Positions 4,611 through 23,220 of a DNA stretch of 40,349 bases are shown here, one piece after another. The notes under the pieces were generated by a model, which was given only the letters and a program-made list of their open reading frames with translations, was not told the DNA's origin and made no database searches. This DNA comes from Bifidobacterium breve (lineage in GTDB: Bacteria; Myxococcota_A; UBA796; SXON01): NCBI GenBank assembly GCA_943328795.2, contig CALQBK020000022.1:1-40349 (forward strand), given 5' to 3'. The translations under genes and the position numbers were made by a program. Position 1 is the first letter of the stretch; each line of letters starts with the position of its first letter.

Positions 4611-5771
4611 CTAGCCCACGAGCCGCGGCCGTGCTGCGCGCACGGCCTCGAGATCGCGGAACAGCGCGAGCTCGGCGTCGGCGACGTCCTCGAGCATCGG
4701 CTGGAGCGCGGACCAGTCGCCCGCGTCTTCCCCGCTCTTCCCGCGCTTCCCCCGGGCGAGCCGGCTCGCGTGCAGGGCGAACACGCGCCACTTGTCGCCC
4801 GCCGCTGTCGTCGGGGCCGACATCGCCGCGAGCTCGGGCCAGCTGAGCTGGGTCCCTGCCTGCTGCAGGTACGCCGCGTAGATGAAGCGGAAGCCGGCGC
4901 CGCCGGTGCCGATCTCCTCTTGCATGCGCACGACCCCGGCCAGCCACTCGCGGGCCTTGTCGTTGCCGAGGCGCGTCGGCCACGCCGCGATCTCGCGCCC
5001 CAGGTGCCGGATCCCGCGCACGCCGAGCCAAGGCAGCACCGCCGGGAACTTCAGCATGTGGTGGCAGACCTCCTTCACGCTCTTGTCGACCGCGGCGCGG
5101 AGGTCGGCCTGGGCGACCGCGGGGTCCACCGCCTGCGCGCGGAAGCCGGTCGGGTAGTAGAGCAGGCCGCGGGGCAACAGCGCGTGGGTCCCGGAGAACC
5201 GCGCCCGGCGCAGCGCGTCGACCGGGCACTCGAACAGGCACTCCATCACCGGGTCGCTGACGATGTACACGGCGTCCGGCCCCGACCCGCGGCGCTCCAG
5301 GACGAGCAGGTTGTGCCCGTTGAAGTGCACGCGCATCGGCCGCGGGATGTAGGGCAACCAGTAGATGTTCACCTGGAGCCCGACGCGCTTGCCCTCGGCC
5401 AGCAGCGCGTCCAGGCGCGCCATGCCCTTCTCCGGGGAGCGGAACGTCTCCCGCGCGTACGTGACGCCCAGCCGGGAGCAAGCGTTCTTGAAAATGCGCC
5501 CGGGGAACGAGCGGAACGTCGTGAGCGGGTGGCCCATCACGCGCACGAAGGAGAAGTGCGAGAAGAAGAGCCCGCTGCCGATCCCGAACACCATCGGCTC
5601 GGTGATGGCGAAGCCGGCGTTCTGGAACATCGAGGCGGTCACGCCGCTCTCGCAGTGGCCCGCGTGCAGGTGCCGGAAGCCGCTCACGGCGTCGATGGAC
5701 AGCGCGGTGCCGACTTGCACGGGGCCGGAGCCGCTCGCCCCGGGGGAGAGCGCCGTGGGCTCGCTGCTCAC
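4611..5771 (-). CDS. BtrH N-terminal domain / DUF4872-like protein (acyltransferase-like)
   Basis: HLHAGHCESGVTASMFQNAGFAITEPMVFGIGSGLFFSHF matches the BtrH_N signature as remembered; it lies at the end of a DAR-type gene cluster. Start taken as the ATG of MSSEPTALSPG (TGATG overlap region near 5768-5771). Confidence 0.75.
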   Translation of the reverse strand: MSSEPTALSPGASGSGPVQVGTALSIDAVSGFRHLHAGHCESGVTASMFQNAGFAITEPMVFGIGSGLFFSHFSFVRVMGHPLTTFRSFPGRIFKNACSRLGVTYARETFRSPEKGMARLDALLAEGKRVGLQVNIYWLPYIPRPMRVHFNGHNLLVLERRGSGPDAVYIVSDPVMECLFECPVDALRRARFSGTHALLPRGLLYYPTGFRAQAVDPAVAQADLRAAVDKSVKEVCHHMLKFPAVLPWLGVRGIRHLGREIAAWPTRLGNDKAREWLAGVVRMQEEIGTGGAGFRFIYAAYLQQAGTQLSWPELAAMSAPTTAAGDKWRVFALHASRLARGKRGKSGEDAGDWSALQPMLEDVADAELALFRDLEAVRAARPRLVG

Positions 5772-6182: not shown

Positions 6183-7331
6183 CTAGACGGCCCGCAGGAG
6201 CGCCCAGCCGCAGGAGAAGCGGCCGCTCTCGGGGACGAGGAGCACGACGCCGTCGCCCTTTTGCAAGCGCCCGCTCGCGAGGAAGTCGTCGAGCATGATG
6301 AGGCTCGACGCGCACCCCGTGTTGCCGCGCTGAACCAAGTTCGAGCACCAGCGCTCGTACGGGATCTCAAAACCCGCCTGGACGAGCGCGTCGTGGGTCT
6401 TGTCCCGGAAGAACTCGGATGAGTAGTGCGGCAAGAACCAGGTGGCGTCGTCCGCCGTGAACCGGTGCTTCTTGCGCACCACGTCCAGGGCGCGCGCGCA
6501 GGTGTTCACGATGTGCTTGCCGAGGAGCTTCACGTCCTGGTGGATGTTGAGCACGCCGCCCCGGATGCCGGCCTCCATCGACTCGCCGTCCCGCCACCCG
6601 ACCAGGCCGCCGGACGGCGTCGGGTCTCCCCCCATGTACATGCAGACGGGCAGCTCGTTCGCGAAGGACACGAGCTCCACGAACTCGACCTTGAGCGAGA
6701 GGCCAGTCTCCCGCGGGCGGTCTTGCACGACGCACGCGCCGGCGCCGTCCGACAGCATCCACCGCAGGAATTCCTGGTTGAACCCGAGGTACGGGTCCTC
6801 CTCCTCCGCCAGCGTGCGCGCGGCCAGCTCGGCCCGGAACGCGCCGCTGCGCAGCACCATCGAGGTCCGCTCGGCGCCGGACACCACGGCGTTCCGCGCG
6901 CCCCCCGCCTTCACCGCGAGCGTCGCGTACTTCAACGCCGAGATCCCGGCCGAGCACACGCCGTGCAAGCTCGCGATCTCGCAGGGCGCCGCGCCAAGCT
7001 CCCCGTGCACCATCGACGCGTGGCCGGGCATCAGGTGCTCGGGGATGCTCGTCGCGCACGCGAGCAGGTCGATGTCGTCGAGCCCGAGCCCCCGCGCGCC
7101 CATTGCGGCGCGGATGGCCTCCGCCGCCAGCCCGGCGGTGGTGTGCGTAGGCAAGCCGGTGGCCGGGTCGATCGCGTAGTGGCGGTGCAGGATCCCGTTG
7201 TTCTTCAGGATCCGGCTCTTGAGCCGGGACGGGTCGTTTCCGACGCGCCCGAGCACCTGCTCGATCGCGTCATTGCCGATCGCCGGACCTGGCAGGACGG
7301 AGCTCGTTGCGGTGATGAAGGCGTCGGGCAT
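6183..7331 (-). CDS. darB: StlD/DarB-family beta-ketoacyl synthase III
   Basis: 382 aa; active-site Cys in LHGVCSAGISALKYA, His in LPHYSSEFF, Asn in QRGNTGCASSLIML; ILKNNGILHRHYAI typical of the DarB/StlD family. Confidence 0.85.
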   Translation of the reverse strand: MPDAFITATSSVLPGPAIGNDAIEQVLGRVGNDPSRLKSRILKNNGILHRHYAIDPATGLPTHTTAGLAAEAIRAAMGARGLGLDDIDLLACATSIPEHLMPGHASMVHGELGAAPCEIASLHGVCSAGISALKYATLAVKAGGARNAVVSGAERTSMVLRSGAFRAELAARTLAEEEDPYLGFNQEFLRWMLSDGAGACVVQDRPRETGLSLKVEFVELVSFANELPVCMYMGGDPTPSGGLVGWRDGESMEAGIRGGVLNIHQDVKLLGKHIVNTCARALDVVRKKHRFTADDATWFLPHYSSEFFRDKTHDALVQAGFEIPYERWCSNLVQRGNTGCASSLIMLDDFLASGRLQKGDGVVLLVPESGRFSCGWALLRAV

Positions 7332-7372
7332 CGGGGTGTGAGGCAGGAGGAACGTGGAGGCGGAGCGCGCGA

Positions 7373-8278
7373 TCAGGCCACGGGGAGCCGGGCGAGACGA
7401 TCGAGCCAGGGGTCCACCCAGCGACGGAACAGCACCTCGACTATCACGAAGGGCACGAAGAGCCCGATCACCGAGCTCAAGATGAAGCACAGGAGCGCGA
7501 CCGCCGAGAGGTCGCGCGCGAGGGTGCCGGGCCGCGTGACGGCGCCGATGATCGTCGCGAAGACGGGGAAGAGCCGCCCTACGACCTGCTCGCCGGCGGC
7601 GTGGGGGTAGCTGACGGTGGCGGTCACTTGGTCCGCGAGCAAGGCGGCGGGGGCCGCGCCCCGGGGCTCGGCGCCGAGGCGCTCTGCCGCGACGCGGCCG
7701 AGCTCGGCAAGGCGCGTGAACGTCTCGGACCCGAGGCCGGCGGCCGGGAGCGCCTTGATAGCGTCGCGCTTCCCGGTCAACATCCACGCGAGGGTCGTGA
7801 AATAGCTCGCGAAGACGGACCCGCTGTGGGTAGCGACGACGCGGTCGGTCACCATCCCGCCTTGCGCCTGGACCAGCTTCACGAGGCGCCGCCAGCCTGT
7901 CACCCACATGTTGCGGCACGAGATGAGCGTCAGCACGCGCTGTCCGACGAACAGCCCGCGGTCCGGTCCGGTCAGCAGCGCGGCGAACGGCTGCGACGGG
8001 GACAGGAACCACACCTGCGCGGCGAGCACTACGAGGTCCCAGTCCCCCGGCGGGAGCGCCAGCCGCTGGATCGGCGCCGGGCGCCCCAGGACGGTCTCGG
8101 GGAACTCGCCGAAGAAGGTGTTGACCTTCCACGGGAACGGGAACGGCGTGACGGGCTCGAGCGCGACGTAGTGCACCTCGTGCCCGGCGTCGGCGAACGG
8201 CTTGGCGAAGCTCTCCGCGACGGTCTTGAGCTGGCCGCTCTGCGACCACCAGATCACGAGGACGCGTCGTGGGGTCAT
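7373..8278 (-). CDS. darA: DarA-like dialkylresorcinol condensing enzyme (flavodoxin-like N-terminus, C-terminal TM)
   Basis: VLVIWWSQSGQLKTVAESFAKPFADAGHEVHYVALEP (flavodoxin-like loop) and adjacency to darB; C-terminal hydrophobic helices. Confidence 0.75.
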   Translation of the reverse strand: MTPRRVLVIWWSQSGQLKTVAESFAKPFADAGHEVHYVALEPVTPFPFPWKVNTFFGEFPETVLGRPAPIQRLALPPGDWDLVVLAAQVWFLSPSQPFAALLTGPDRGLFVGQRVLTLISCRNMWVTGWRRLVKLVQAQGGMVTDRVVATHSGSVFASYFTTLAWMLTGKRDAIKALPAAGLGSETFTRLAELGRVAAERLGAEPRGAAPAALLADQVTATVSYPHAAGEQVVGRLFPVFATIIGAVTRPGTLARDLSAVALLCFILSSVIGLFVPFVIVEVLFRRWVDPWLDRLARLPVA

Positions 8279-10200
8279 GGCGAGGGCTCCAGCAGGGAGA
8301 TGGCGGTGGCGAGCAGGGTGTCGGGCGTGACGCCGAGGGGCGTCTTGGTGCAGGCGGCGGTGCCGAGCGAGAGGACGGTGGCGCCTGCGTGGCTGGCGTC
8401 CGCGACGGACACGCTGGATAGCCGGCCGCCGGCGAAGGTGTAGGTGGCCGAGCGGACGAGGTTGCCCGACGGCCCGTAGAAACGCGCGCCCGAGAGGAGC
8501 CCGGTGGCCGCGACGTCGAACTCGGCGCGGGCGAACGCGAGGCCCGAGCCGGGCGTCGCGGTGGCCGTGATGACGCCCGGCTGGCCCGGTGCAGGGGTGG
8601 TCGCGACGGTCCAGCCCGAGGCGAGCCGGGGGTCGATCACGTCCGCGATCGAGAGCTGGCCAAGCAGGCGCTGCGCTAGGCCGACGCGCATCGGCTTGCC
8701 CATCGTCTCGGTCTGGAACCAGGTCGCGCCGCCCGTCTCCAGCACCGCCTGGCGGTGGCCGACGAGCAGCGTGGTGCTGACCGCGAGCGTGTCCGCCCCC
8801 TGGGTGACCACCCGCCAGCCGATGCTCGACTGGGTGTCCTTCACCGCGACGTCGACGGTGCAGCGCTGGTCAGCTGGGGGCGGCGGGCCGAACGCGCTGG
8901 TGAGCGCTCCGGACTCGGCGGCGCGCGCCGGCGACGGCCCGGCCGCGATCGCGAGCAGCACGGCGAGGCCGACCAGGCCGCGCGAGAGCTCGCCGCGGGT
9001 CGCGCGCCACGCGGGGATGGCCGACGCGGTGACAGCGGCCACGAACGTCGCGCTGAGCACCACCACGAACCCGAGCGCGTCGAGCTGGATCCGCGCCGGG
9101 TAGCCCTGGCTGAACCCGGGCGGCGGGGGCATCGGGATCCCGCCCAGCATCGTGACCAGCTGCGAGAACAGCAGCGCGCCGACCCCGCCGAGCGCGCAGC
9201 CGAGCGCCCCGTAGAGCGCGCCCTCCGCCAAGAAGATGCTCGCGACTTGCCGCCGGGTGAGCCCGACGACCCGCAACATGGCGATCTCCGCGCGCCGCTC
9301 GGCGACGACGGCGGCGAGGGCGTGGGACAACGAGAGCACGGTCACGATCACCATCAACGCCTGGAACACGCCAAAGATGCGATCGTAGAGCGCCTTCACC
9401 GCGATGTAGTAGTCGGCGCGCTGGTACCAGGGGCGCGCGTCCAGGCCCGCGAACGCCGGCTCGGCCAGCACCCGGCGCGTCGCGGCCAGCACGGCGTCGG
9501 TGTCCGCCGTGTCGGTGAGCGCGAGCACGAGCAGGTCCGCGGTGGTGCCGTCGGCCAGCGAGAGCGCGGTGTCAAGCGGGAGCACGGCGTACGCGCGGTC
9601 CAGGTCCTGGGCGCCGGTCATCGTGGTGCCGAGCACCTGGAGGTCCATCGCGTTGGTGAGCCCCTGGTCGGTCGTCACCATCGCGGTGACGGTGCTGCCG
9701 GGCTGCACGCCGAGTCGGGCTGCGAGCGGGGCGCCGAGCAAGAGCCCGAGGGGCTTTGCGGGGTCCAACAGCGTGCCGGCGACCGAGTGGGCGAGCGGCG
9801 CGATCTTCGACTCCGCCGCGGGCTCGGTGCCCTGCCCCATGAAGATCCCGGAGCGCCCGTCGACGATGAGCATGCCGACTACGTTTCGGCGTACGGCGCT
9901 CGCCAACAGGCGGTCGTGGATCTCGGGATTGGCGGCGAGCGCGTCGCGCAGGGCGTCGAGCTTCGCGCGCTCGGTGCGGTGCTGCTCGGGGGCGGGGGCG
10001 TCGAACCACGCGGCGTCCGCGACCTGCACGTGCCCGTTGCCGCCGCGGGCGAACGCCTCGGACAGCCCCCAGTACGTGTCGTGGGTGAAGCCGTAGAAGG
10101 TGAGCCCGCCGACCACCGCGTTCGCGAGGCCGAGCGCGGTGAGCAGCGTGCGCTTCGGGCTCCGCGCGAGGCTCTTCCAGGCGAGGCGCAGCGCGTTCAT
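8275..10200 (-). CDS. FtsX/LolE-like ABC permease fused to a LolA-like outer-membrane lipoprotein-sorting domain
   Basis: ATG at 10200 (MNALRLAWKSLARSPKRTLLTALGLANAVVGG); permease part ends ...AIPAWRATRGELSRG and runs in frame into a signal-peptide-like segment LVGLAVLLAIAAGPSPARA followed by a domain with MGKPMRVGLAQRLLGQLSIADVIDP, LolA-like. Confidence 0.75.
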   Translation of the reverse strand: MNALRLAWKSLARSPKRTLLTALGLANAVVGGLTFYGFTHDTYWGLSEAFARGGNGHVQVADAAWFDAPAPEQHRTERAKLDALRDALAANPEIHDRLLASAVRRNVVGMLIVDGRSGIFMGQGTEPAAESKIAPLAHSVAGTLLDPAKPLGLLLGAPLAARLGVQPGSTVTAMVTTDQGLTNAMDLQVLGTTMTGAQDLDRAYAVLPLDTALSLADGTTADLLVLALTDTADTDAVLAATRRVLAEPAFAGLDARPWYQRADYYIAVKALYDRIFGVFQALMVIVTVLSLSHALAAVVAERRAEIAMLRVVGLTRRQVASIFLAEGALYGALGCALGGVGALLFSQLVTMLGGIPMPPPPGFSQGYPARIQLDALGFVVVLSATFVAAVTASAIPAWRATRGELSRGLVGLAVLLAIAAGPSPARAAESGALTSAFGPPPPADQRCTVDVAVKDTQSSIGWRVVTQGADTLAVSTTLLVGHRQAVLETGGATWFQTETMGKPMRVGLAQRLLGQLSIADVIDPRLASGWTVATTPAPGQPGVITATATPGSGLAFARAEFDVAATGLLSGARFYGPSGNLVRSATYTFAGGRLSSVSVADASHAGATVLSLGTAACTKTPLGVTPDTLLATAISLLEPSP

Positions 10201-10267: not shown

Positions 10268-10957
10268 TCACGCGATCCTCCCACCCGAGAGGCGCAGGAG
10301 GTGGTCTGCGCGCGCGGCGACGTTGGGGTCGTGCGTCGCGACGAGCAGCGCGGCGCCGGACGCGCGGGCCTCGGCGAACAGCACGTCGAGCACCTGCTCG
10401 CCGGTCACGCTGTCGAGCGCGGCGGTGGGCTCGTCGGCGAACACGACGGCCGGCCGGTTCACGAGCGCGCGGGCGATCGCGACGCGCTGGCGCTCGCCGC
10501 CGGACAACGTGCGCACGTCGCGGTCCGCCCGCGCCGAGAGCCCGACGCGCGCGAGCAGGTCGAGGGCCCGGGCCCGCGCGTCCGCCCGGCGCACCCCGGC
10601 GTACTCGGCCGGCAGCATGACGTTCTCGAGCGGGGTGAGCGACACCACCATCGGGTAGGTCTGGTGCACGAACCCGAGCCGCCGGAGCCGAAAGTTGCTC
10701 CGCGCGTCATCCCCCAGCCCGGAGCCGTCCGCGGCCGAGAGGCAGGTGGCGTCGAGCCAGACGGACCCGGACGACGGGGGGTCGAGCAGCGCCGCGACGT
10801 GGAGCAGCGTGGACTTGCCCGAGCCGGACGGGCCCATGATCGCGGTCGCTTCCCCCGCCGCGAACGTGGCGTCCACGTGCGCGAGCGCGGGCACCTGCAC
10901 GGCGTCGAGCAGCCAGGTCCGGGAGATGGCGCGGAGGGAGAAGATCCGGCGCGGGTA
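10268..10957 (-). CDS. LolD/MacB-type ABC transporter ATP-binding protein
   Basis: Walker A GPSGSGKST, signature [15 protein letters not shown], Walker B VVFADEPTAALDS. The listed GTG start (10900) truncates the first strand; the frame is open to 10957 without an ATG, so the true 5' end is uncertain. Confidence 0.85.
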   Translation of the reverse strand, partial: YPRRIFSLRAISRTWLLDAVQVPALAHVDATFAAGEATAIMGPSGSGKSTLLHVAALLDPPSSGSVWLDATCLSAADGSGLGDDARSNFRLRRLGFVHQTYPMVVSLTPLENVMLPAEYAGVRRADARARALDLLARVGLSARADRDVRTLSGGERQRVAIARALVNRPAVVFADEPTAALDSVTGEQVLDVLFAEARASGAALLVATHDPNVAARADHLLRLSGGRIA

Positions 10958-10992: not shown

Positions 10993-11850
10993 CTACCCGC
11001 TGCGGCGGATCGTCACCCGCGCGGCCGTGCCCTGCGCCGTGCGGTGGACGTGGGAGAACGCCGGGGTGCTCACCCGCTCGGTGCCGTCGAGCACCTCGAC
11101 GACCCGCAGCGCCGCGGCCGTGGACATCAGCCGGGTCTCGGCTGGCGCGACGTTCGGCCCGCGCAGCCCGGCGAGCCGCCACCCGGGCAGCACGGTCGCG
11201 TCGCTCGGCGCGCCGGCCACCAGCGTGTCGACGTCCGCGGCGCCGATCCACACCTCTTCGATAAGCGTCGACCGCCCAGGGCAACGCGCCACCTCGCCGA
11301 GCAGCAGCCAGCCGGACCCCATCGCGCACCGGCCCTCGAGCCCGACGGCGTCGAGCCGGGCGAGGTGCTCGGCCTCCCGCGCGGGGTCCAGCACGTCGAT
11401 CCCGCCGACGAGCGCGAGGTTCACGAGCCCGTCCTGCAGCGCCAGCACGGCCTCCAGCAGCGCGGCCTCGAACGAGAGCTCCTCCTGGGAGACCGTGACG
11501 TTCGCGCCGTCGAGGCTGCACGACCGCGCGACGTAGAACGCAGCGGCGTTGCCGACAGACCCCGCGAACGCCATCGGGCTGCACCACGGGCGCTCGGCGT
11601 GCAGGATCCCCTCGCCGAGCGGCACGGCGGCCTCGGTGTTGCCGAGCCCCGTGCCCATGAACACGCCGACGTTCGCGTGCTTGAGCGCGAGCGGGTCCGC
11701 CGCGGCCAGGCACGACTGTGCGCCGACCTGCGCGAGCTTCACGTAGTTCCCGATGCGCCGGAAGCCCTTGCCGAACGTCGCGAGGTGGCGGGCCTCGACG
11801 TCGTCGCTCGTCTTGGCCCACGCGAGGATCGAGACGGAGGGGCTACGCAT
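10993..11850 (-). CDS. Ketosynthase-like chain-length-factor protein lacking the catalytic Cys
   Basis: ATG at 11850 (MRSPSVSILAWAKTSDDVEARHLATFGKGFRRIGNYVKLA) overlapping the KS stop; thiolase-fold segments (NVGVFMGTGLGNTEAA) but VSQEELSFEAAL where VSTACAS is expected. Confidence 0.75.
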   Translation of the reverse strand: MRSPSVSILAWAKTSDDVEARHLATFGKGFRRIGNYVKLAQVGAQSCLAAADPLALKHANVGVFMGTGLGNTEAAVPLGEGILHAERPWCSPMAFAGSVGNAAAFYVARSCSLDGANVTVSQEELSFEAALLEAVLALQDGLVNLALVGGIDVLDPAREAEHLARLDAVGLEGRCAMGSGWLLLGEVARCPGRSTLIEEVWIGAADVDTLVAGAPSDATVLPGWRLAGLRGPNVAPAETRLMSTAAALRVVEVLDGTERVSTPAFSHVHRTAQGTAARVTIRRSG

Positions 11851-12985
11851 CGCGCACCGCGAAGGCGACGCACGAGCCGCCGAAGCCGAAGGAGTTGAAC
11901 ACGTGCACGCCGCGGGGCGCGACCCGCACGGCCGTCGCGGGGATGACGCCGATGTCGGGGTCCGGCTCGCCAAACCCCGTCGACGCAGGCAAGAACCCCG
12001 CGTCCAGGCAGCCGAGCCAGAGCGCGGCCTCGATCGCCCCGGCCGCGCCGAGCGTGTGCCCGATCGCGCCCTTCAACGACGCGAACGGCGGGCGGCCGCC
12101 CGTGAACGCCCGGGCGATGCCTCGGCCCTCCGCCAGGTCGTTGTCCACCGTGCCGGTGCCGTGCGCCTTCACGCTCACCACCTGCTCGGGGTTGACCTTC
12201 GAGTGGGCGAGCGCCCCGCGGATGACGGCCTCGACGGTGGAGCCGTCCGTGGCCGAGCCGGTCAGGTTCGACACGTCGATGCGGTTGGCGCTGCCGAGCA
12301 GGTGGAACGCGCCCGCCGCGCCGCGGTCGATCACGAGCACGCCGCAGCCCTCGCCGAGCTGCAAGCCGGCGCGCCGCACGTCGAACGGCCGGCAGGGGTT
12401 CGGGTCGCACAACAGCAGGCTGCGAAAGCCGTAGACCGTCATGTTCGCGAGCAGGTCGAAGCCGACGACCACCGCGCGGTCGCACGTGCCGCCCCGCAGG
12501 TGGCTCGCCGCGGCGGCGACCGCGGCCGCGCTCGACGTGCAGGCCATCGAGAACGTCGCGACGGGCCCGGTCGCCCCGACTTGGAGCGCGACGGCCTCGG
12601 CGACCTCGCCGACCCCGCGCCGCCCGAACCAGGGCGACGCGGCGGGGTTGGTCAGCCGCTCGTGGTACAGCGCGATGTCCGCGTCGACGAAGAAGCCGCC
12701 GGTGGTCCCGACGAACACGCCCGTCACCCCGTCGCTCGGCCCAGCCTTGCGCACGGCCTCCTCGACCGCGAGCGTCACCATCGTGCGCGCGCGCTCGTCG
12801 AGCGGGCAGTCGAGCGGCGCCTCGCCCGCGTAGGGTCGGCCCCCGTTCACGTCGACCAGGTGGGCGGACCGCGTGGTCGGCCCGAGGCCGCGGCGCCCTT
12901 CTCGGAGCGCGCGAACGGCGTCCGCGGTGGTGAGCCCGAGGGCCGAGACCGCGCCCCAGCCGGTGATCGCGAGCGGCGCGGTCAT
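11843..12985 (-). CDS. FabF-type beta-ketoacyl-ACP synthase II
   Basis: Active-site FSMACTSSAAAV, HGTGTVDND and KGAIGHTLGAAGAIEA motifs; FNSFGFGGSCVAF at the C-terminus. Confidence 0.9.
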   Translation of the reverse strand: MTAPLAITGWGAVSALGLTTADAVRALREGRRGLGPTTRSAHLVDVNGGRPYAGEAPLDCPLDERARTMVTLAVEEAVRKAGPSDGVTGVFVGTTGGFFVDADIALYHERLTNPAASPWFGRRGVGEVAEAVALQVGATGPVATFSMACTSSAAAVAAAASHLRGGTCDRAVVVGFDLLANMTVYGFRSLLLCDPNPCRPFDVRRAGLQLGEGCGVLVIDRGAAGAFHLLGSANRIDVSNLTGSATDGSTVEAVIRGALAHSKVNPEQVVSVKAHGTGTVDNDLAEGRGIARAFTGGRPPFASLKGAIGHTLGAAGAIEAALWLGCLDAGFLPASTGFGEPDPDIGVIPATAVRVAPRGVHVFNSFGFGGSCVAFAVRDA

Positions 12986-14664
12986 CCGGCGTCGGGCCCC
13001 GGGGCGGGCCGCCGCTGGAGCACGGGCAGCACGGTGTCCAAGATGGTGACCGGGCGCTCGCCGAGCGCCGCCAGCACGGGGCTCTCGATGCCCGGCACGT
13101 CACGCTGCGCCTCGCCGAAGATCTCGGAAGCGAGCTGGTCCAAGCTCGCGAGGCCCGTCCCGAGGCGCGCCAGGAACTGGTCCCGGTCCAGCGGGTCCTT
13201 CAGGCCGCGGTTGAGCTCCCGCATGAAGGGCATCCCCGCCATGTTCACGAACACCGGCGCCACCTTGATCCCCGCCTTGTGCCACTCGCGGAACAGCTGC
13301 TGCACGGCCAGGTTGATGTCCCCGGCCCGGTCGAGCTCCGCCTTGCGCTCGGAGAACAGCATCATGTCCGTGAGCCGGCCGTGGAAGAAGAACGCCGCGG
13401 GCATCACCCAGTAGTACGCGAAGTCCCAGATGATCTTGAGCGTCATCACCTTCGCGTTGCCGTTCATGTGCATCTGGCCCTCGTAGAGGGTCAGGTGGCT
13501 GTCGTAGAAGTTGAAGAAGATGCGGTTGTACACGTTCGCCCGGGCCCCGATGCGCTCGCCCGCGAGGTCGCGGACCACGAGGTCGGTGATCAGCGTGTTG
13601 CTGATGCCGATGTAGTCGCTGCCCGGCGAGTAGAACGGGTCCAAGAACGCGCCGGCTTCCCCGGTGAGCGCCCAGCGGTTGTTGTCGTAGAGCTGCGTGC
13701 AGCTGTAGCTGAAGTCCTTGAGCGCCAAGAAGTCCTGGAGCTGGGCGCCGTCGGCGATCACCTGGTCCAGGTAGGCCGCGGCCTGGGGCTCGAACTTCCG
13801 GATCCAGGCCATCGACTTTTCGTACGAGGCGATGGTGCCGAACGGGTGCAGATCGGCGTCCACGACGATGCCGACGCTGTGGCTGCCGGACGCGAGGGGG
13901 ATGAACCAGAGCCAGTAGCCGGCGCCGCAGAAGTGCACGGTCGAGAGCCACCGCTGGCGCTTCCCGCCGATGCGGTTGGTCCACCCAGGGTCGTCCGAGA
14001 AGTCGTCGACCTTGAGCCGCTTGTCGTAGCGCCACCACGTCGCGTTCGCGTCGTGCCCGTTCTTCTTCTGGAGCCCGAGCTTACGCTTGAGCAGGCTCGA
14101 CCGGCCGGAGGCGTCCACCACCCACCGCGCGTCGACCCTCACGGTGTCGCCCTCGGCCGCGCCGGGGGGGCTGAACGTGACGCTGTGCGTGCCCGCGCGC
14201 TCGGCGAGCGTGACCTCGCGGACCACCGCGCCGTGCACGAAGTGCGCGCCGGCGGCGAGCGCCTCGACGCCAAGGTGGTTCTCGAACCGCCCGCGGTCGA
14301 TCTGGAAGCTCTCGGTCTCGAAGAACGTGTTCCCGCCGAGCTCGGTGCGGGTGGTGATGTCCATCGGGTCGTCGGCGTCGAAGAAGTACCGCAAGCCGAG
14401 CTTCGGGAGCTGGTCCTTGCGAAAGTGCTCGAGTTGGCCGAGCACGCGCGTGAAGTAGTGGGCGCCGATCTCGACCGACGACTCGCCGACCTTGTGGGCG
14501 GCCTCGTCCACCGGGTGCGCCTTCTTCTCGATCACGAGGATCCGCGTCTCGGGCCGTTGCTGGAGGAGCTGCAGCGCGAGCGTGAGGCCGGCGAGCCCGC
14601 CGCCGAGCACGACGACATCGTAGGCGGGGAGGAGGTCCGCGCGCGCGGTGATCGCGGGCGTCAC
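12982..14664 (-). CDS. FAD-dependent oxidoreductase of the flavin-dependent halogenase-like superfamily
   Basis: GTG at 14664; GGGLAGL Rossmann motif, KVGESSVE, GYWLWFIP (WxWxIP) and GEAGAFLDPFYSPGSDYI. Confidence 0.8.
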   Translation of the reverse strand: MTPAITARADLLPAYDVVVLGGGLAGLTLALQLLQQRPETRILVIEKKAHPVDEAAHKVGESSVEIGAHYFTRVLGQLEHFRKDQLPKLGLRYFFDADDPMDITTRTELGGNTFFETESFQIDRGRFENHLGVEALAAGAHFVHGAVVREVTLAERAGTHSVTFSPPGAAEGDTVRVDARWVVDASGRSSLLKRKLGLQKKNGHDANATWWRYDKRLKVDDFSDDPGWTNRIGGKRQRWLSTVHFCGAGYWLWFIPLASGSHSVGIVVDADLHPFGTIASYEKSMAWIRKFEPQAAAYLDQVIADGAQLQDFLALKDFSYSCTQLYDNNRWALTGEAGAFLDPFYSPGSDYIGISNTLITDLVVRDLAGERIGARANVYNRIFFNFYDSHLTLYEGQMHMNGNAKVMTLKIIWDFAYYWVMPAAFFFHGRLTDMMLFSERKAELDRAGDINLAVQQLFREWHKAGIKVAPVFVNMAGMPFMRELNRGLKDPLDRDQFLARLGTGLASLDQLASEIFGEAQRDVPGIESPVLAALGERPVTILDTVLPVLQRRPAPGPDAG

Positions 14665-14963
14665 TCGCCGATCTCCCAGCCTTTCTCCTTCGCGATGTGC
14701 GCTGCCAGCGACGAGACCGACCGGAACGCAGCCTTGGCGGCGGACAGGTCCTCGATGCGGACACCGTACTCCTTGTCGATCGCGGCGCTGATCTCGATCG
14801 CGTCGAGGCTGCCGAGGTCGAACTTGCCCCCGCCGCGGATCAGGCGCTCCTCGTCGTCGATGTCGCCAGGCTCGATGTCCTGGAGGTCGCACACGTCGAC
14901 GATGATCTGCTTGAGCCGGCTCTTGAGCTCGGCCAGGGAAGGGGCTGGGGAGGCGGGTGGCAT
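14661..14963 (-). CDS. Acyl carrier protein
   Basis: 100 aa; KSRLKQIIVDVCDLQDIEPGDIDDEERLI...DLGSLDAIEISAAIDKEYGVRIED with the phosphopantetheine Ser in GSLDAIE. Confidence 0.9.
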   Translation of the reverse strand: MPPASPAPSLAELKSRLKQIIVDVCDLQDIEPGDIDDEERLIRGGGKFDLGSLDAIEISAAIDKEYGVRIEDLSAAKAAFRSVSSLAAHIAKEKGWEIGE

Positions 14964-14974
14964 GGCGGACGGGC

Positions 14975-15742
14975 TTAATGCGATCCGGCGTCCCGCGTCC
15001 CGGCGATTCTCTGCTGGACGACGCGCGCTACGAACAGGGGGTTGCCGACCAGGAACCGCTTCCAGAGCCGGCGGGGGTCCACCAACAGCCGCGCCAGCCA
15101 CTCCTGGTTGGTGTACAGGAGCTCCGGGCCCCGGCTCACCTCGCCGGACACGAAGTCGGCTGTCGCGCCGACGCACCACGTGACCGGCGCGTCGATCCGC
15201 GCCCGGTTCGCCGCGACCCAGCGCTCCTGGATGGGCGTGCCCATGCCGACGAGGACCACGTCGGGCCGCGCCGCGTTGAGCCGGGCGAGCAGGTCGTCGT
15301 GCCCGGGGCCCTGGCTCGGGTGGTACCCGTGGTCGGTGAACACGAACTGGACGCCGGGGTGCTGGGCCTCGAGCGCGCGCGCCGCGCGGTCGGTCACCCC
15401 GGGCTTCCCGGCGATCCACGCGAGCCGCCAGCCCCGGCCCGCCGCGTGCACCGCGAGGTCGTGGATCCAGTCCGCGCCGGTCATCCGCCCGGGCAACGCG
15501 CGCCCGAGGATCCGCGCGCCGAGCACGACGCCGCTGCCGTCCGCGAAGCACACGTCCGAGGCGTTCAAGAAGCCCCGCAGCGCGGGGTCGCTCGCCGCGG
15601 TGTTCAACACGTGCACGTTCACGTAGGAGACCGTCGCCTGGCCCCGGGCGTCCACGAGCCCGCTGACGCGCTCGAGCAGGGTGTCGAGCGTCAGGGCGTC
15701 GACGCCGACCCCGAGGAGCTGCACGGGCCGCTGCGCGCTCAC
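14975..15742 (-). CDS. WecG/TagA/CpsF-family glycosyltransferase
   Basis: VSYVNVHVLNTAASDPALRGFLNASDVCFADGSGVVLGARILG...RMTGADWIHDL...VLVGMGTPIQERWVAANR...VGATADFVSGEVSRGPELLYTNQEWLARLLVDPRRLWKRF. Confidence 0.88.
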   Translation of the reverse strand: MSAQRPVQLLGVGVDALTLDTLLERVSGLVDARGQATVSYVNVHVLNTAASDPALRGFLNASDVCFADGSGVVLGARILGRALPGRMTGADWIHDLAVHAAGRGWRLAWIAGKPGVTDRAARALEAQHPGVQFVFTDHGYHPSQGPGHDDLLARLNAARPDVVLVGMGTPIQERWVAANRARIDAPVTWCVGATADFVSGEVSRGPELLYTNQEWLARLLVDPRRLWKRFLVGNPLFVARVVQQRIAGTRDAGSH

Positions 15743-16143
15743 GCACCCTCCGCCGGTGGGTCGAACAGCGCGGCCGTCAGGCGCGCCCGGCACACCAGCG
15801 CGCCGCGGTGGTGGACCTCGCCGCGCGCCTCGGTGATCTTGAGCCGGCGCTCGACCACCTCGACGGTGAATGTGAGCGTACACGGCGGGGACGCCGCGGC
15901 CGGGAACTCCGCGGCGGGGACGCCGAGCAGCACGGCAGCGCCGGTCTCCCCGTGCAGGCTGCCGAGGCACGCCATCGCCTGCGCGAGCCCCTCGACGAGC
16001 TGCATCCGCGGGACGGTGGCGGGCCAGCCCGACGCGTCGAAGTCTCCCTCGGCGGTCAGCGTCCCGCCGTCGAAGGCGACGAGCCGGTCGAGCAGGAGCT
16101 GGGGTCGGCGGTGCGGGATCAGCGAGTCGGGGGACGGCAGCAC
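15739..16143 (-). CDS. FabZ/ApeP-like 3-hydroxyacyl-ACP dehydratase (hotdog fold)
   Basis: 134 aa; LIPHRRPQLLLDRLVAFDGGTLTAEGDF...QLVEGLAQAMACLGSLHGE. Confidence 0.8.
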   Translation of the reverse strand: MLPSPDSLIPHRRPQLLLDRLVAFDGGTLTAEGDFDASGWPATVPRMQLVEGLAQAMACLGSLHGETGAAVLLGVPAAEFPAAASPPCTLTFTVEVVERRLKITEARGEVHHRGALVCRARLTAALFDPPAEGA

Positions 16144-17489: not shown

Positions 17490-18743
17490 TCAATCCGAGC
17501 GCAAGGCTTCGACAGGGTCGAGCTGGGACGCGCGCCAGGCCGGGTAGATCCCGAACGTCAGCCCGATGACCGACGAGAACAGGAGCCCGAGCCCGACGGA
17601 CCAGCCCTCCACCTGGAACGGCCACGGCGCCACCCACTTGGTGAGCGCCCAGGAGCTGATCGCCAGCAGCACGAGCGCGCCGAGCAGGCCGATCGCCGCG
17701 CCGACGAGGGTGATCATCACCGTCTCCGAGATGAACTGCTGCAGGATGTCGCCCCGCGTGGCGCCGACAGCGCGGCGCAGGCCGATCTCGCGCGTGCGCT
17801 CGACGACCGTCACCAGCATGATGTTCATGATGTTGATCCCGCCGACGATCATCGAGAACACCGTCGTCAAGTACAGCAGCGCCTGGATCGTGTTCATGAT
17901 CAGGGCCTCGGTGCCCGAGTCGTCGCTGACCCCCTCGAACCGGTAGCTCTTCACGCTGCGGTCGCGCATCAGGATCGCGTCGAGCACCCCGCGCGTCGCC
18001 AGCACGTAGTCCTTCAACAGCCCGTTGAGCTGCACCGGCGGGGCGACCTTGACGACGATGTTCGTCGGCCGCCGGGACGGGTCGAAGTTGAGCTGGTACG
18101 TCCGCTCTGGGAACAAGAGCCGCTGGTTCCAGCTCCACGGCCCGCCCGGCCCCATGTCCGCCTTCTCTGCGAGGACCCCGACGACCACGTACGGGCGCCC
18201 CTCGACCCGGACGACGTCCCCGGGCGCGGCCGTGCCGTCGAGCGCCTTCGCGCCGACCACGATCACCCGCCGGGCGTCGGCGAAGTCGCTCTCCGAGAAC
18301 GCCCGGCCCTTCGCGATGCCGAGGTTGTAGACGGCGAGCGTCTCGGCGCCGATGCCGATGGTGAACGGCGTGTAGTCCTTCTCCTTCCAGCGGGCCTTGC
18401 GGTCCTGCATCCCGTACGTCGCCGTCACGCTCGACCCCTCCGGCAGCATCGTCGAGCGCGCGATCGCCTCCTGGTCGGTGTGCCGCAAGCGCTCGGCGTC
18501 CGGGTGGTTCTGCAGCGAGTCCCAGTCGTTCTGCACCGTGATCACGTCGTCGCCGGTGGCCTCGGCGCTCGACGCTTGGAGCGTCGCTTGGCCGACCTCG
18601 AGCAAGCTCGCCATCACCACGAGGCTGCCGACGCCGACGACGATGCCCGAGACGGTGAGCATGAAGCGCACCTTCTGCGTGCGAAACAGGTCGAGCGTCG
18701 CAGAGAGCGACGTGGCGACTGAGGCGAACAGGGTGCTCACCAT
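17490..18743 (-). CDS. MacB-like FtsX-family ABC permease
   Basis: ATG at 18743 (MVSTLFASVATSLSATLDLFRTQKVRFMLTVSGIVVGVGSLV); VGGINIMNIMLVTVVERTREIGLRRAVGATRGDILQQF; PAWRASQLDPVEALRSD. Confidence 0.9.
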   Translation of the reverse strand: MVSTLFASVATSLSATLDLFRTQKVRFMLTVSGIVVGVGSLVVMASLLEVGQATLQASSAEATGDDVITVQNDWDSLQNHPDAERLRHTDQEAIARSTMLPEGSSVTATYGMQDRKARWKEKDYTPFTIGIGAETLAVYNLGIAKGRAFSESDFADARRVIVVGAKALDGTAAPGDVVRVEGRPYVVVGVLAEKADMGPGGPWSWNQRLLFPERTYQLNFDPSRRPTNIVVKVAPPVQLNGLLKDYVLATRGVLDAILMRDRSVKSYRFEGVSDDSGTEALIMNTIQALLYLTTVFSMIVGGINIMNIMLVTVVERTREIGLRRAVGATRGDILQQFISETVMITLVGAAIGLLGALVLLAISSWALTKWVAPWPFQVEGWSVGLGLLFSSVIGLTFGIYPAWRASQLDPVEALRSD

Positions 18744-19978
18744 CAGCGCCTCAGGCACTCCACGACGTCGAGCCGGGCGGCGCGCCAGGCGGGCACGGCG
18801 CCGAACAAGAGCCCGATGCCGCTCGTGACCCCGAGCGAGAGGCCGACGCCCATGACGCTGTACATGCCTTGCCAGCTCGGCAGCGAGCTGCGGATCAGCG
18901 TGTTGGTGCCGAGCGTGACGAGGAGCCCGAGGACCACGCCCGCGATGCCCCCCGTCAGGGACAACGTCGACGCCTCGATCAGGAACTGCCAGAGGATGTC
19001 GGTGCGCGAGGCGCCGAGCGCCTTTCGGATCCCGATCTCCCGCACGCGCTCCGTCACCGAGACGAGCATGATGTTCATCACGCCGATGCCGCCGGCGAAC
19101 AGCGAGATGCTCGCGATCAACGCCACGATCATGTCCAGCACGTTGAAGAACGTGTAGAACTGCTTCAAGAACCCGGAGAAGTCCAGCGACTGGAAGTCCT
19201 CCACCCCGCGGTGGTTGTTCAACAGCGCGGCGTTGGCCATCGCGACGGTCGTGGCGTTGTACTTGGCGTCCTCGGTCAGCCCGACGAAGAACCGCGCTTG
19301 CTCGGGCCGCCCGTCCCGCTTCTCGGCCGTGAGGAGCGGCACGAACACGCTCGTCTCCCACGAGAACCCAAAGTGGATCCCCATCATCTCGCGCACCTCC
19401 AGGACCCCGGCGACGATGTAGGGCTTCTTGCCGACGAAGATCGTCTGGCCGACGGCCTCGTCGAGGCTCTTGCCGGGGAACAGGGTCGTCGCGAGCGGCG
19501 CGGTGATCACCGCGACGCGGTGCCGCTGCACCCCGTCCTCCTCGGTCAGCGGCCGCCCCTGGGCCACCTTCCAGTTCAGGATCTCGAGCACACCGACGCC
19601 GACGCCGACGATGTCCGCAGTCGAACGGTTGTCCGCGGTCGCCCACACGGCCTCGGAGCCGTAGGTCGCCTCGCTCGCGACGTCCTTCAAGTAGGGCACC
19701 TCCTTCAACGACGCGAGGTCGATGTCCGTGAACCCGCGGTCGTACACCGCGCGGTCGCGCGCCGACGCCGTCTCCCCCTCGGAAGGGATCCACAGCACCA
19801 TCTGCATCCCGCCGATCTGCTCGATCTCGGCGGAGAGCGTCTTCTGGCCGGACTGGGCGAGCGACAACATCACGACGATGGAGAACGCGCCGATGGTCAC
19901 CGAGAGCATCGTCAAGATCGTCCGGAACGCGTTGCCACGCAGGGTGCGGAGCGCGAGGAGGGCGGTCTCGAGGATCAC
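18743..19978 (-). CDS. MacB-like FtsX-family ABC permease (second, tandem)
   Basis: GGIGVMNIMLVSVTERVREIGIRKALGASRTDILWQFLIEA; PAWRAARLDVVECLRR. Confidence 0.9.
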   Translation of the reverse strand: MILETALLALRTLRGNAFRTILTMLSVTIGAFSIVVMLSLAQSGQKTLSAEIEQIGGMQMVLWIPSEGETASARDRAVYDRGFTDIDLASLKEVPYLKDVASEATYGSEAVWATADNRSTADIVGVGVGVLEILNWKVAQGRPLTEEDGVQRHRVAVITAPLATTLFPGKSLDEAVGQTIFVGKKPYIVAGVLEVREMMGIHFGFSWETSVFVPLLTAEKRDGRPEQARFFVGLTEDAKYNATTVAMANAALLNNHRGVEDFQSLDFSGFLKQFYTFFNVLDMIVALIASISLFAGGIGVMNIMLVSVTERVREIGIRKALGASRTDILWQFLIEASTLSLTGGIAGVVLGLLVTLGTNTLIRSSLPSWQGMYSVMGVGLSLGVTSGIGLLFGAVPAWRAARLDVVECLRR

Positions 19979-20000
19979 GTGCGGTTGGCCTCTGCGCGCA

Positions 20001-21122
20001 TCAGTCGATCTTCGCGCTCATGTCCTTGATGTCGGCCTGGGCGTAGAACTCGTCGCCCTCCTTGGCCCCCGTCAACACCTCGACCTCGCGGTCGCTGCGG
20101 TGCCCGATCGTGATCTCGGTCTTCTCCTTCACCTTGCCCTCTTTGCCGTCCGCCGCCGGGTGCACCAAGTACACGTAGGACTTCCCCTCCTCCTCGAACA
20201 CCATCTCCGCGGGCAGCTTCACGACCTGGGGCCAGGTGCCGATCTGGATCCGGACCTCGGCGGTCATGCCCGGCTTGATCTCGACCTTCGCCGTGGACGG
20301 GTCGACCTCCACCTTCACGGTGAAGACGTCGATGCCGCGGGTGAGGTCCGTGTGGCCGGCGGCCGCGATCTGCGTGACCTTCCCCGGCACCTCTTCGCCC
20401 GGGTACGCGTCGAGCAGGATCCGCGCGGGCTGGTCGAGGTGGACCTTCGCCACGTCGACCTGGTTCAGGTCGATCTCGAGCAGGAGCTTGTCCATCTGCG
20501 CGATGGTGAGCTGCGCCTCGCCGTTCACCGTCGCCGTGACGCCCGCGGTGACGACCTCGCCCGGCTCCACGTTGCGCACGATCACGACGCCGTCGATCGG
20601 TGCCGTGATCTTCGTGTAGTTGAGCTGGTCCTGCGCCGACTGCAGCTGCACCTTCTGCCCGTCGATGTTCACCTTCGCGAGCTCGACCTGGCGGCGCGCG
20701 ACGTCGTACTCGGCGGCGGAGATGCCACGGGTCGCGAGGGCCTGCTCCTTGCGCTGGCGGTCCACCTCCGCGTTCTCGGCCTCGAGCTGCGCCTGCTTGA
20801 GCGCCACGCGGGCGAGCGCGACGTTCCGGCCGTACTCGGTGTCCAGGATCTCGTAGAGCAAGTCGCCCTTCTTGACGACTTGGCCCTCCTGCACCTGCAC
20901 GGCGAGCACCTCGCCGGACACCTTCGACTTGATGTCGACGTCGAACCGGGGCGTGATCTTGCCGGCCTCGCTCACCTCGTCCACGAGGTCGCCCTTCGTG
21001 ACCGGGCGGACGAGGTTGTCGTCGAGCTTCTCGTCGCCGCCGCCGGTGAGCCCGGAGCACGCGAGGAGGGGGCGGGCGAACGCGAGCGCGATTGCGGCGC
21101 GCTCGAGCCGGGAGAGGGTCAT
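20001..21122 (-). CDS. HlyD/MacA-like periplasmic adaptor (possible lipoprotein)
   Basis: ATG at 21122; lipobox-like PLLACSG; ITPRFDVDIKSKVSGEVLAVQVQEGQVVKKGDLLYEI...LNYTKITAPIDGVV...GMTAEVRI. Confidence 0.88.
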   Translation of the reverse strand: MTLSRLERAAIALAFARPLLACSGLTGGGDEKLDDNLVRPVTKGDLVDEVSEAGKITPRFDVDIKSKVSGEVLAVQVQEGQVVKKGDLLYEILDTEYGRNVALARVALKQAQLEAENAEVDRQRKEQALATRGISAAEYDVARRQVELAKVNIDGQKVQLQSAQDQLNYTKITAPIDGVVIVRNVEPGEVVTAGVTATVNGEAQLTIAQMDKLLLEIDLNQVDVAKVHLDQPARILLDAYPGEEVPGKVTQIAAAGHTDLTRGIDVFTVKVEVDPSTAKVEIKPGMTAEVRIQIGTWPQVVKLPAEMVFEEEGKSYVYLVHPAADGKEGKVKEKTEITIGHRSDREVEVLTGAKEGDEFYAQADIKDMSAKID

Positions 21123-22417
21123 GGGGTCCCCGAGGGTGTGAGGGCTTCGCCGGAGAGCCAGCGCAGGTCGTACTCTGCGGTCGCGAGCTGCACGCGCAGG
21201 CTCGCGCCCTGGGTGCGCGCTTGACGGAAGCTCGCCTGGGCGTTGAAGAGGTCCAAGATCGTGGCAGAGCCTTGGCCGTAGAGCCCCTGCACGATCTGCA
21301 GGTTGTCCCGTGCTAGCGCCACTTGTGCGTCGACGAGCGGCGCGCGCTCCCGCAGCTGCCGCACGTTCGACGCCGCGCGTCGGAGCTCGGCGGCGAGGCT
21401 GTCGCGCGTGCTCTCGGTGCTCGCGTCCACCTGCTGGGCTTGCAGCTTGGCGACGGCGACGGCGTCCCGCGTCTGGAACAGGTCGAAGATGTCCCACGAC
21501 AACGAGAGGCCGACGCTCGCGTCGAGCGAGGGCCCGAGGTCGTCGGGGTCGAACGTCGTGGAGCCGGTCACCCCCGACGCGCTCCCGGAGCCGCCGGCGG
21601 TGGCCGTGACCGACAGGGTCGGCAGCGCCCCCGCGCGCGCGCTGGTCACGGCGTCGGCGGCTTGTCGCGCCTCCTGCGCCTTCCGGGCGAGCTCGGGGCG
21701 GTCGGGCACGGTGTCGGGGATGGAGACCGCGGCGTCGCTCGGGGCCGGCGGCGGGTCGGCCAAGACCAGCGCGTCGTCGCCGTAGTGCAACAGGCGGAGC
21801 AGCTCCTGCTGCGCGTCGTAGAGCGCGGCCTTCTCCTCGACGAGCGTCTCCTGCTGGGCGTACAGGTCGACCTTCGAGCGGTTGACGTCGATGCCGGCAG
21901 CGAGCCCGGCGTCCGCCTTCGCGACGATGATGTCGAGCGCCTGCTGGGTGAGGTCGAGCCCCTCCTGCGCGGCCTCGATCTGCAGCTCGTAGCCCTTGAT
22001 GTTCCAGTACGCGGTGTACGCCGAGCGCTGCAGTGAGCGCGCAGTGATCAGCCGGTCCAGCGACGCCATCTCGGCCCCGGCGTCGGCGGCGTCGACCGAG
22101 GCTCGGACGGCGCCGCCCGCGTAGAGCGGCACGGCGAGGTTCGCGTGCGTGTCCCAGCTCGCGTCGGTCCCCGCGTAGGCGTCTTGCTTCCAGGGCTTCG
22201 CGACCCCGGCGTCCCCGCCGCCTGTCGCGACCACCGTCGCGCTGAAACGGTCGAGCCGGGCGCGGCGCGCTTCAATCGCGGCGATGTCGCGCGCGAGGTC
22301 CGCGCTCTGCAGGTCGGGGTTGCGCTCGACGACGAGGCGCAGCGTGTCCGCTAGCGTGAGGGTGCGCGTCTCGCCCGCGAACGCGGTCCCGGCGAGCAGG
22401 AAGAGCAAGGCGATCAC
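21119..22417 (-). CDS. TolC-like outer membrane efflux protein
   Basis: GTG at 22417 ([44 protein letters not shown]); alternating coiled-coil pattern typical of OEP family. Confidence 0.87.
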
Positions 22418-23157
22418 GAGACCTCCGCGTGTTCGGCGGCCCGTCGACCCGCGAGGACCTCGGCGGGCGGCCCGTCGGCCACGATCTGCCCGTCGCGCAC
22501 CCACACCATGCGCTGCGCACGCGCCGCGACGGCGGCCTCGTGGGTGACCAGCGCGATAGTCAGCCCGGTCGCGTGCAGCGTGTCGAGCAGCGCGAGGATC
22601 TGCTTCGTGGTCTCGCTGTCGAGCGCGCCCGTCGGCTCGTCCGCGAGCAAGAGCCGCGGCCGGGTGACCAGCGCGCGGGCGATGGCGACGCGCTGCTGTT
22701 GCCCGCCCGAGAGCTGGGCCGGGCGGTGGGTCGTCCGCTCGGAGAGGCCGACCTGGGCCAGGGCCTCCAGCGCGCGCGCCCGGCGCTCCTTGGTCGGCAC
22801 CCGGCTGTACACCAACGGCACCTCCACGTTCTCCACCGCGTTGAGCCGCGGGAGCAGGTTGAAGCTCTGGAACACGAACCCGATCTTGCGGTTCCGCAGG
22901 CTCGAGAGCTTGGCGTCTGTCATCGCGGAGACCAGCTCCCCGTCGAGCCAGTACTCGCCGCGCGTCGGGCGGTCGAGCGCGCCGAGGATGTTCATCAGCG
23001 TCGACTTCCCCGACCCGGACGTGCCCATGATCGCGCAGGACTCGCCGTCGACGACCTGCAGCGACAGGTCGTTCAACGCGTAGAGCTCCTGTTCTCCAGA
23101 CGTGTAGATCTTGAACAGGTGCTCGGCGGAGATGAGCGGGCGGGCGGGCTCGGGCAT
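22414..23157 (-). CDS. MacB/LolD-type ABC transporter ATP-binding protein
   Basis: ATG at 23157; [38 protein letters not shown]. Confidence 0.92.
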
Positions 23158-23220
23158 GGCGACGCGTGCGTATCCCGGGCGCTTTCGCACACCGGGGTCT
23201 GCGGGTCCCGAGTTGTCTGG

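Follow-up and report, generated by a model that had tools for sequence, protein, structure and literature searches.

Introduction

The systems closest to the locus described here, E. coli LolCDE–LolA and the homodimeric LolF, consist of a type-VII ABC pump, with a LolC-like permease and a LolD-like ATPase, and a carrier of the LolA fold. A separate-gene analogue is the Borrelia cluster BBJ26–BBJ27–BBJ28, which encodes an ATPase, a proposed homodimeric LolE-like permease, and a LolA-like protein bearing its own signal peptide (PMC13078400). LolA-like carriers have also been proposed to be dedicated to the export of pigment lipids to the outer membrane, namely ApeM/ApeL/ApeN for aryl polyenes and LolA2/LolB2 for flexirubins (PMC8253772, PMC11885536). 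The flexirubin and aryl-polyene clusters contain these dedicated LolA/LolB-like proteins as separate genes (PMC11885536, PMC3992019, PMC8253772), the aryl-polyene transporter being of the RND type, and LolA accompanies an exporter of another type in the published flexirubin and xanthomonadin clusters (PMC3992019, PMC3949708). The dar cluster of Azoarcus has a separate ABC permease and ATPase and no gene annotated as LolA (PMC3949708).

Searches of the open-access literature yielded no account of a permease–LolA fusion. Here we analyze such a fusion, encoded in a 40,349-nucleotide stretch of DNA (hereafter, the window), which shares the above components with LolCDE–LolA and LolF but differs from them in having the carrier and the permease in one gene and in scoring well below the cut-offs of the LolC/E and LolD models. 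In contrast to LolCDE, the locus has one permease per ATPase, and its cargo is probably not restricted to lipoproteins.

Domain structure of the fusion protein

The fusion gene runs on the minus strand from an ATG at position 10200 to a TGA at 8275–8277 (10200 to 8275) and encodes 641 residues; an alternative GTG start at 10284 would yield 669 residues, with the ATG being favoured by the homologues. The permease half (residues 1–408; 8977..10200, minus strand) is FtsX/LolC-like, matching PF02687 with an E-value of 2.2e-17 (63.6 bits, above the cut-off of 25.5), and its nearest solved relatives are LolC (E-value, 3e-15), LolF (9e-12), and LolE (1.7e-6), in line with the FtsX/LolE-like character proposed previously for this half. 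Its score against TIGR02212 (lolCE), 89.2 bits, lies far below the cut-off of 362, and the permease is thus LolC-like, but not LolC by that test. At the position of the LolA-binding Hook loop, the aligned loop of the window permease is shorter than that of LolC; the motif TTDxGLTNAxDL found there is kept in all six fusions known to us (see below), and a similar loop occurs in the separate permease of the same genome.

The remainder of the chain (residues 428–641; 8278..8919, minus strand) constitutes a LolA-like, presumptively periplasmic domain. A profile built from five homologous domains gave a single match against all PDB sequences, 3BUU (E-value, 1e-10), which is NE2245, a protein of the LolA superfamily. 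For the window domain, no Pfam model scored above its cut-off and PF17131 (LolA_like) gave no match; the latter model was found in two of the five homologues (best E-value, 0.001), below its curated cut-off. The AlphaFold model of the full chain, a check suggested earlier, was built from only two input sequences and showed a mean pLDDT of 38, whereas the model of the LolA-like domain alone, with a mean pLDDT of 56, resembles structures of the LolA/LolB type. The top Foldseek match of this domain model was again 3BUU (E-value, 1.4e-6), followed by Porphyromonas gingivalis LolA3, a DUF1329 protein, another lipoprotein-sorting domain, LolB, and then many LolA entries, with RseB and MucB being low in the list. 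Judged from these profile and model comparisons, the C-terminal half belongs to the LolA superfamily, as the sequence-only reading had it. Two cysteine residues of the domain, Cys447 (codon at 8860..8862, minus strand) and Cys617 (codon at 8350..8352, minus strand), are invariant in the alignments and are the sole cysteines of the whole chain in the homologues from genomes G009 (N-terminus incomplete) and G011; Cys617 is a possible disulfide partner of Cys447, and such a bond would fit the oxidizing periplasm.

Conservation of the fusion

A whole-genome search identified the same two-domain protein in five more genomes of the order, with 51–80% identity to the window protein: G004 (80%; also present as the public MAG contig CAIQVJ010000112.1), G001 (64%), G009 (59%), G011 (62% in the permease half and 49% in the LolA-like half), and G031 (51%), which belongs to a different family. 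Strong matches to the LolA-like half were found in six of the 63 genomes searched in the order, no further one was found among 379 genomes drawn from the phylum, and plasmid records contained no match to the permease at an E-value of 1e-10. The reading frame contains no stop, frameshift, or ambiguity between the two halves, and the junction is in frame in all six genomes, the length differences being whole codons. The permease–LolA gene fusion is therefore real and conserved, and the in-frame fusion in a single 641-residue frame, the absence of an overlooked stop or indel, and the existence of other proteins with this architecture, all raised by the sequence-only reading, are confirmed.

The closest pairs, to which the dN/dS analysis was restricted because the NG86 method is unreliable for distant pairs owing to their high divergence, gave values of 0.14 (permease), 0.37 (junction), 0.24 (linker), and 0.39 (LolA part) for the window and G004, and 0.15, 0.53, 0.41, and 0.35, respectively, for G009 and G011. 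Frame breaks were observed elsewhere in two of the genes: one in G001 lies later, inside the LolA-like domain and near the contig end (L003, G001:C41, about 290–315), and a single one in G009 (G009:C73) lies near the N-terminus. Both are away from the junction and probably represent draft-assembly errors rather than decay.

Genomic context and putative cargo

Directly upstream of the fusion is the gene for a LolD/MacB-like ABC ATPase (10268..10900, minus strand; PF00005, E-value, 2.8e-29), which scores 185.6 bits against the LolD model TIGR02211, below the cut-off of 307.75, and adjoins the fusion in all six genomes. The N-terminus of the ATPase that is backed by homology (YPRRIFSLRAISRTWLLDA) reaches past the first ATG/GTG/TTG to an in-frame stop (window 10900–10957, minus strand), and the true start is probably a little upstream of 10900. 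The end of the ATPase gene at 10268 is 67 bases upstream of the fusion ATG, and at the other side the ATG (8276–8278) of a DarA-like gene (7373..8278, minus strand; read from sequence) overlaps the stop codon of the fusion. The overlap and the short gap place the fusion inside a tight operon-like run on one strand.

In G004 and G054, the gene immediately upstream of DarB is a homologue of the DarA-like gene. In the window, the run continues on the minus strand with a DarB/StlD-family ketosynthase (6183..7343; NF005293, 473 bits, cut-off, 450), which falls below the cut-off of the DarB exception model NF053539 (408 vs 550), and a DarH-like acyltransferase of the BtrH type (4611..5684; NF053550, 363 bits, cut-off, 300). 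With the DarB and DarH models above their cut-offs beside the transporter, the locus resembles a dialkylresorcinol (dar) cluster in this respect. Beyond the ATPase are, also on the minus strand, a second ketosynthase-like protein of the cluster (10993..11973; PF00109, E-value, 2.2e-8), a ketosynthase (11843..12985; PF00109, 1.4e-25; PF02801, 1.5e-20), an FAD-dependent oxidoreductase/halogenase-like protein (12982..14676; PF04820, 4.7e-10), a small protein read from its sequence as an acyl carrier protein (14661..14999) with homologues in the corresponding position in G004, G001, and G031, and, beside the cluster, a WecG/TagA/CpsF-family glycosyltransferase (14975..15745; PF03808, 4e-46). A MacAB-TolC-like set occupies positions 17490–23190 (minus strand), comprising an HlyD-type adaptor, an OEP outer-membrane protein, an ABC ATPase, and at least one MacB-type permease (18743–19978), with a second FtsX-like ORF downstream.

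Biosynthetic genes accompany the transporter in four of the six genomes, i.e., the window, G004, G001 (where the contig ends), and G031 (without DarA/DarB). In G009 (L024:8220-10869) and G011 (L026:9088-11762), only the ATPase and the fusion are present, in a similar shared gene neighbourhood, and genome-wide searches of both found no DarB, no DarH, and no close ketosynthase relative. In the stretches read around DarB loci elsewhere in the phylum, nothing closely related to the ATPase, the permease, or the LolA domain was seen. The earlier view of the fusion as part of a pigment-type cluster thus does not hold for two of the six genomes, and the transporter is a module of two genes that stands by itself, with a cargo that may vary. 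From the flanking ketosynthases, ACP-like protein, oxidoreductase, glycosyltransferase, and DarA/B/H-like genes, the cargo in the four genomes with biosynthetic genes is likely the product of the neighbouring cluster, a lipid of the dialkylresorcinol or aryl-polyene type.

Separate counterparts and a parallel fusion

That permease and LolA genes are normally separate and adjacent, as stated earlier, proved to be the rule in the order: of 36 pairs of an FtsX-type permease and a separate PF17131 gene that were compared, 35 had their members no more than 700 bp apart. The setting is a general cassette, and not the flexirubin-type clusters to which the statement had referred. At all 15 junctions read, including that of the second locus in the window genome, the LolA-like gene begins 2–93 nucleotides after the permease stop and encodes its own signal peptide, and the last residues of the permease follow the pattern PAxRAxxIxPxxAMRxRR-stop, with minor variation. 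The fusion aligns with this arrangement, except that the usual EAMRxRR end of the permease is missing and a signal peptide stands in its place; the simplest reading of the alignment is that the signal peptide of the downstream gene has been retained. The cassette in the same genome (contig C114, L023:293-5284) consists of a possible outer-membrane protein, a LolD-like ATPase, two FtsX permeases, and a separate LolA_like gene. It resembles the fusion in having a permease followed by a signal-peptide-bearing LolA-like protein, but differs in its separate genes, its two permeases, and its location outside a pigment-type cluster. The permease and LolA_like pair of this type recurs across the order.

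Among PF17131 loci of the phylum with large open frames (15 in total), 13 were rejected, since the frame was open by chance next to an ordinary separate gene; the remaining two were true fusions, in which an MMPL/RND transporter is joined in frame to a complete PF17131 domain: L045:563-3715 (G349; 1051 residues) and L046:367-3570 (G302; 1068 residues). Their junction is a signal-peptide-like helix, ranking first in the stretch tested by the score described below. They are an independent parallel to the window fusion, with which they share an inner-membrane transporter joined in frame via such a helix, although the transporter is of the RND/MMPL type instead of an ABC permease and the LolA_like domain is canonical. 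A DarB homologue of G349 is located on another contig.

Junction helix and predicted cleavage site

The junction reads PAWRATRGELSRG-LVGLAVLLAIAAGPSPARA-AESG, in which the end of the permease runs directly into a signal-peptide-like segment. This segment (residues 409–427, LVGLAVLLAIAAGPSPARA; 8920..8976, minus strand) would be a fifth hydrophobic helix, or internal signal peptide, and is present in all six homologues. Its hydrophobic core is short (11–15 residues; best 11-mer mean, 2.4–3.1), and in five of the six fusions it is closed by an AxA-like motif. The topology proposed earlier, in which the cytosolic end of the permease is followed by a helix that places the LolA-like part in the periplasm, is workable.

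For evaluation of the predicted cut after residue 427 (ARA|AE, residues 427/428, window 8920|8919), we used a position-specific score trained on the signal peptides of 22 separate LolA-like proteins, with cleavage sites assigned by eye; an earlier version with automatically assigned sites was dropped, as it had set the training sites too early. The ARA|AE site scored 15.3 and ranked first among about 620 positions in the window protein, compared with −3.5 to 21.2 in leave-one-out scoring of the training set; one separate permease, taken as a control, reached −0.8 at most. The signal-peptidase site pointed out at ARA-AE is thus also the best-scoring such site in the protein. The junction ranked first in four of the six fusions (window, G004, G001, and G009), second in G031, and fourth in G011. 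Since the training sites were set by eye, the score is to be taken as support and not as proof; moreover, alanine-rich linkers readily yield AxA motifs. The linkers are longer in G009 and G011. In G031, the AxA site is followed almost at once by the first helix of the LolA domain (DPLTEAASL), so that a functional tether would have hardly any space.

Discussion

The fusion joins two parts that normally work together and, from the anatomy of its junction, is most likely processed into pump and carrier. In the mechanism we propose, residues 1–408 would form a four-helix type-VII ABC permease, probably homodimeric like LolF, with the product of the adjoining upstream gene as its ATPase. The next 19 residues, the putative signal peptide of a once-separate downstream LolA-like gene, would act as a fifth membrane-entering helix leading the chain into the periplasm, where signal peptidase I would cut, most likely after Ala427, so that each permease chain yields one free LolA-like carrier. 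The pump would then lift its lipid-linked cargo from the inner membrane and pass it to the freed carrier for delivery to the outer membrane. We lean toward this reading of a permease–carrier polyprotein parted by signal peptidase I as the more probable one. A precedent for the arrangement is the cytochrome b/c1 precursor FbcH of Bradyrhizobium, in which a single chain carries a membrane protein and a periplasmic protein that are parted at an internal signal peptide; FbcH belongs to a respiratory complex and its cleavage was shown experimentally, whereas that of the fusion is predicted.

Cutting and tethering had both been left open by the sequence-only reading. If the chain stays intact, the extra helix would serve as a signal anchor, a role also available to a signal-peptide-like helix, and the tethered LolA-like domain as a built-in acceptor that passes cargo to another soluble carrier or an outer-membrane receptor. 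The single chain conserved across homologues, the hydrophobicity of the junction helix, and the longer linkers of G009 and G011 are consistent with this, and the separate LolA-like gene of the same genome could supply the soluble shuttle. The short core with its AxA-like end, the near absence of a linker in G031, which would confine the domain to the membrane, and the score favouring a cut in four of the six fusions argue against it, and we regard an intact chain as unlikely, cleavage being favoured by the junction anatomy. It is improbable to a much greater degree that two products are translated, the long chain and a separate LolA-like protein from an internal start at the junction: G004 has TTG-ATG after AGGGGG there and G001 an ATG at the same place, but an ATG is lacking in the other four (window, G009, G011, and G031), which have only GTG/TTG, not in every case at the same position and with no evident ribosome site, and no internal start codon is common to all six fusions.

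Somewhat less improbable than such an internal start, yet still rather doubtful, is that the LolA-fold domain has a job other than that of a carrier, for example as an RseB-like sensor or an enzyme accessory. The domain misses the curated PF17131 cut-off, and RseB and MucB do appear, low, in the Foldseek list; on the other side, the profile finds only 3BUU, and the place after a LolC-like permease matches the genomic position of a carrier. As to the fusion itself, an assembly or sequencing artefact that removed a stop between two genes might be suspected from the fragmented state of all genomes compared and from the frame breaks elsewhere in the G001 and G009 genes. We reject this explanation, whose probability is close to nil, because independent homologues with 51–80% identity carry the same in-frame junction in six genomes with whole-codon length differences, and dN/dS is below 1 across the junction in the close pairs.

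Returning to the processed polyprotein, we give about even chances to the broader proposition that the pump and the shuttle of a lipid exporter are made as one polyprotein and then separated by signal peptidase, which would set carrier and pump at a ratio of one to one, and that MMPL-type transporters of the phylum have come to this arrangement independently. With the permease–LolA fusion, the carrier that belongs to an ABC lipid exporter can be assigned with no need for genetics, and a ready-made pair becomes available for structural work on the hand-over of cargo, which is known mainly from E. coli LolCDE–LolA. If cut by signal peptidase, the fusion would join the few bacterial examples of polyprotein processing. 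It also adds to the evidence for LolA-like proteins serving dedicated exporters of non-lipoprotein lipids, such as pigments.
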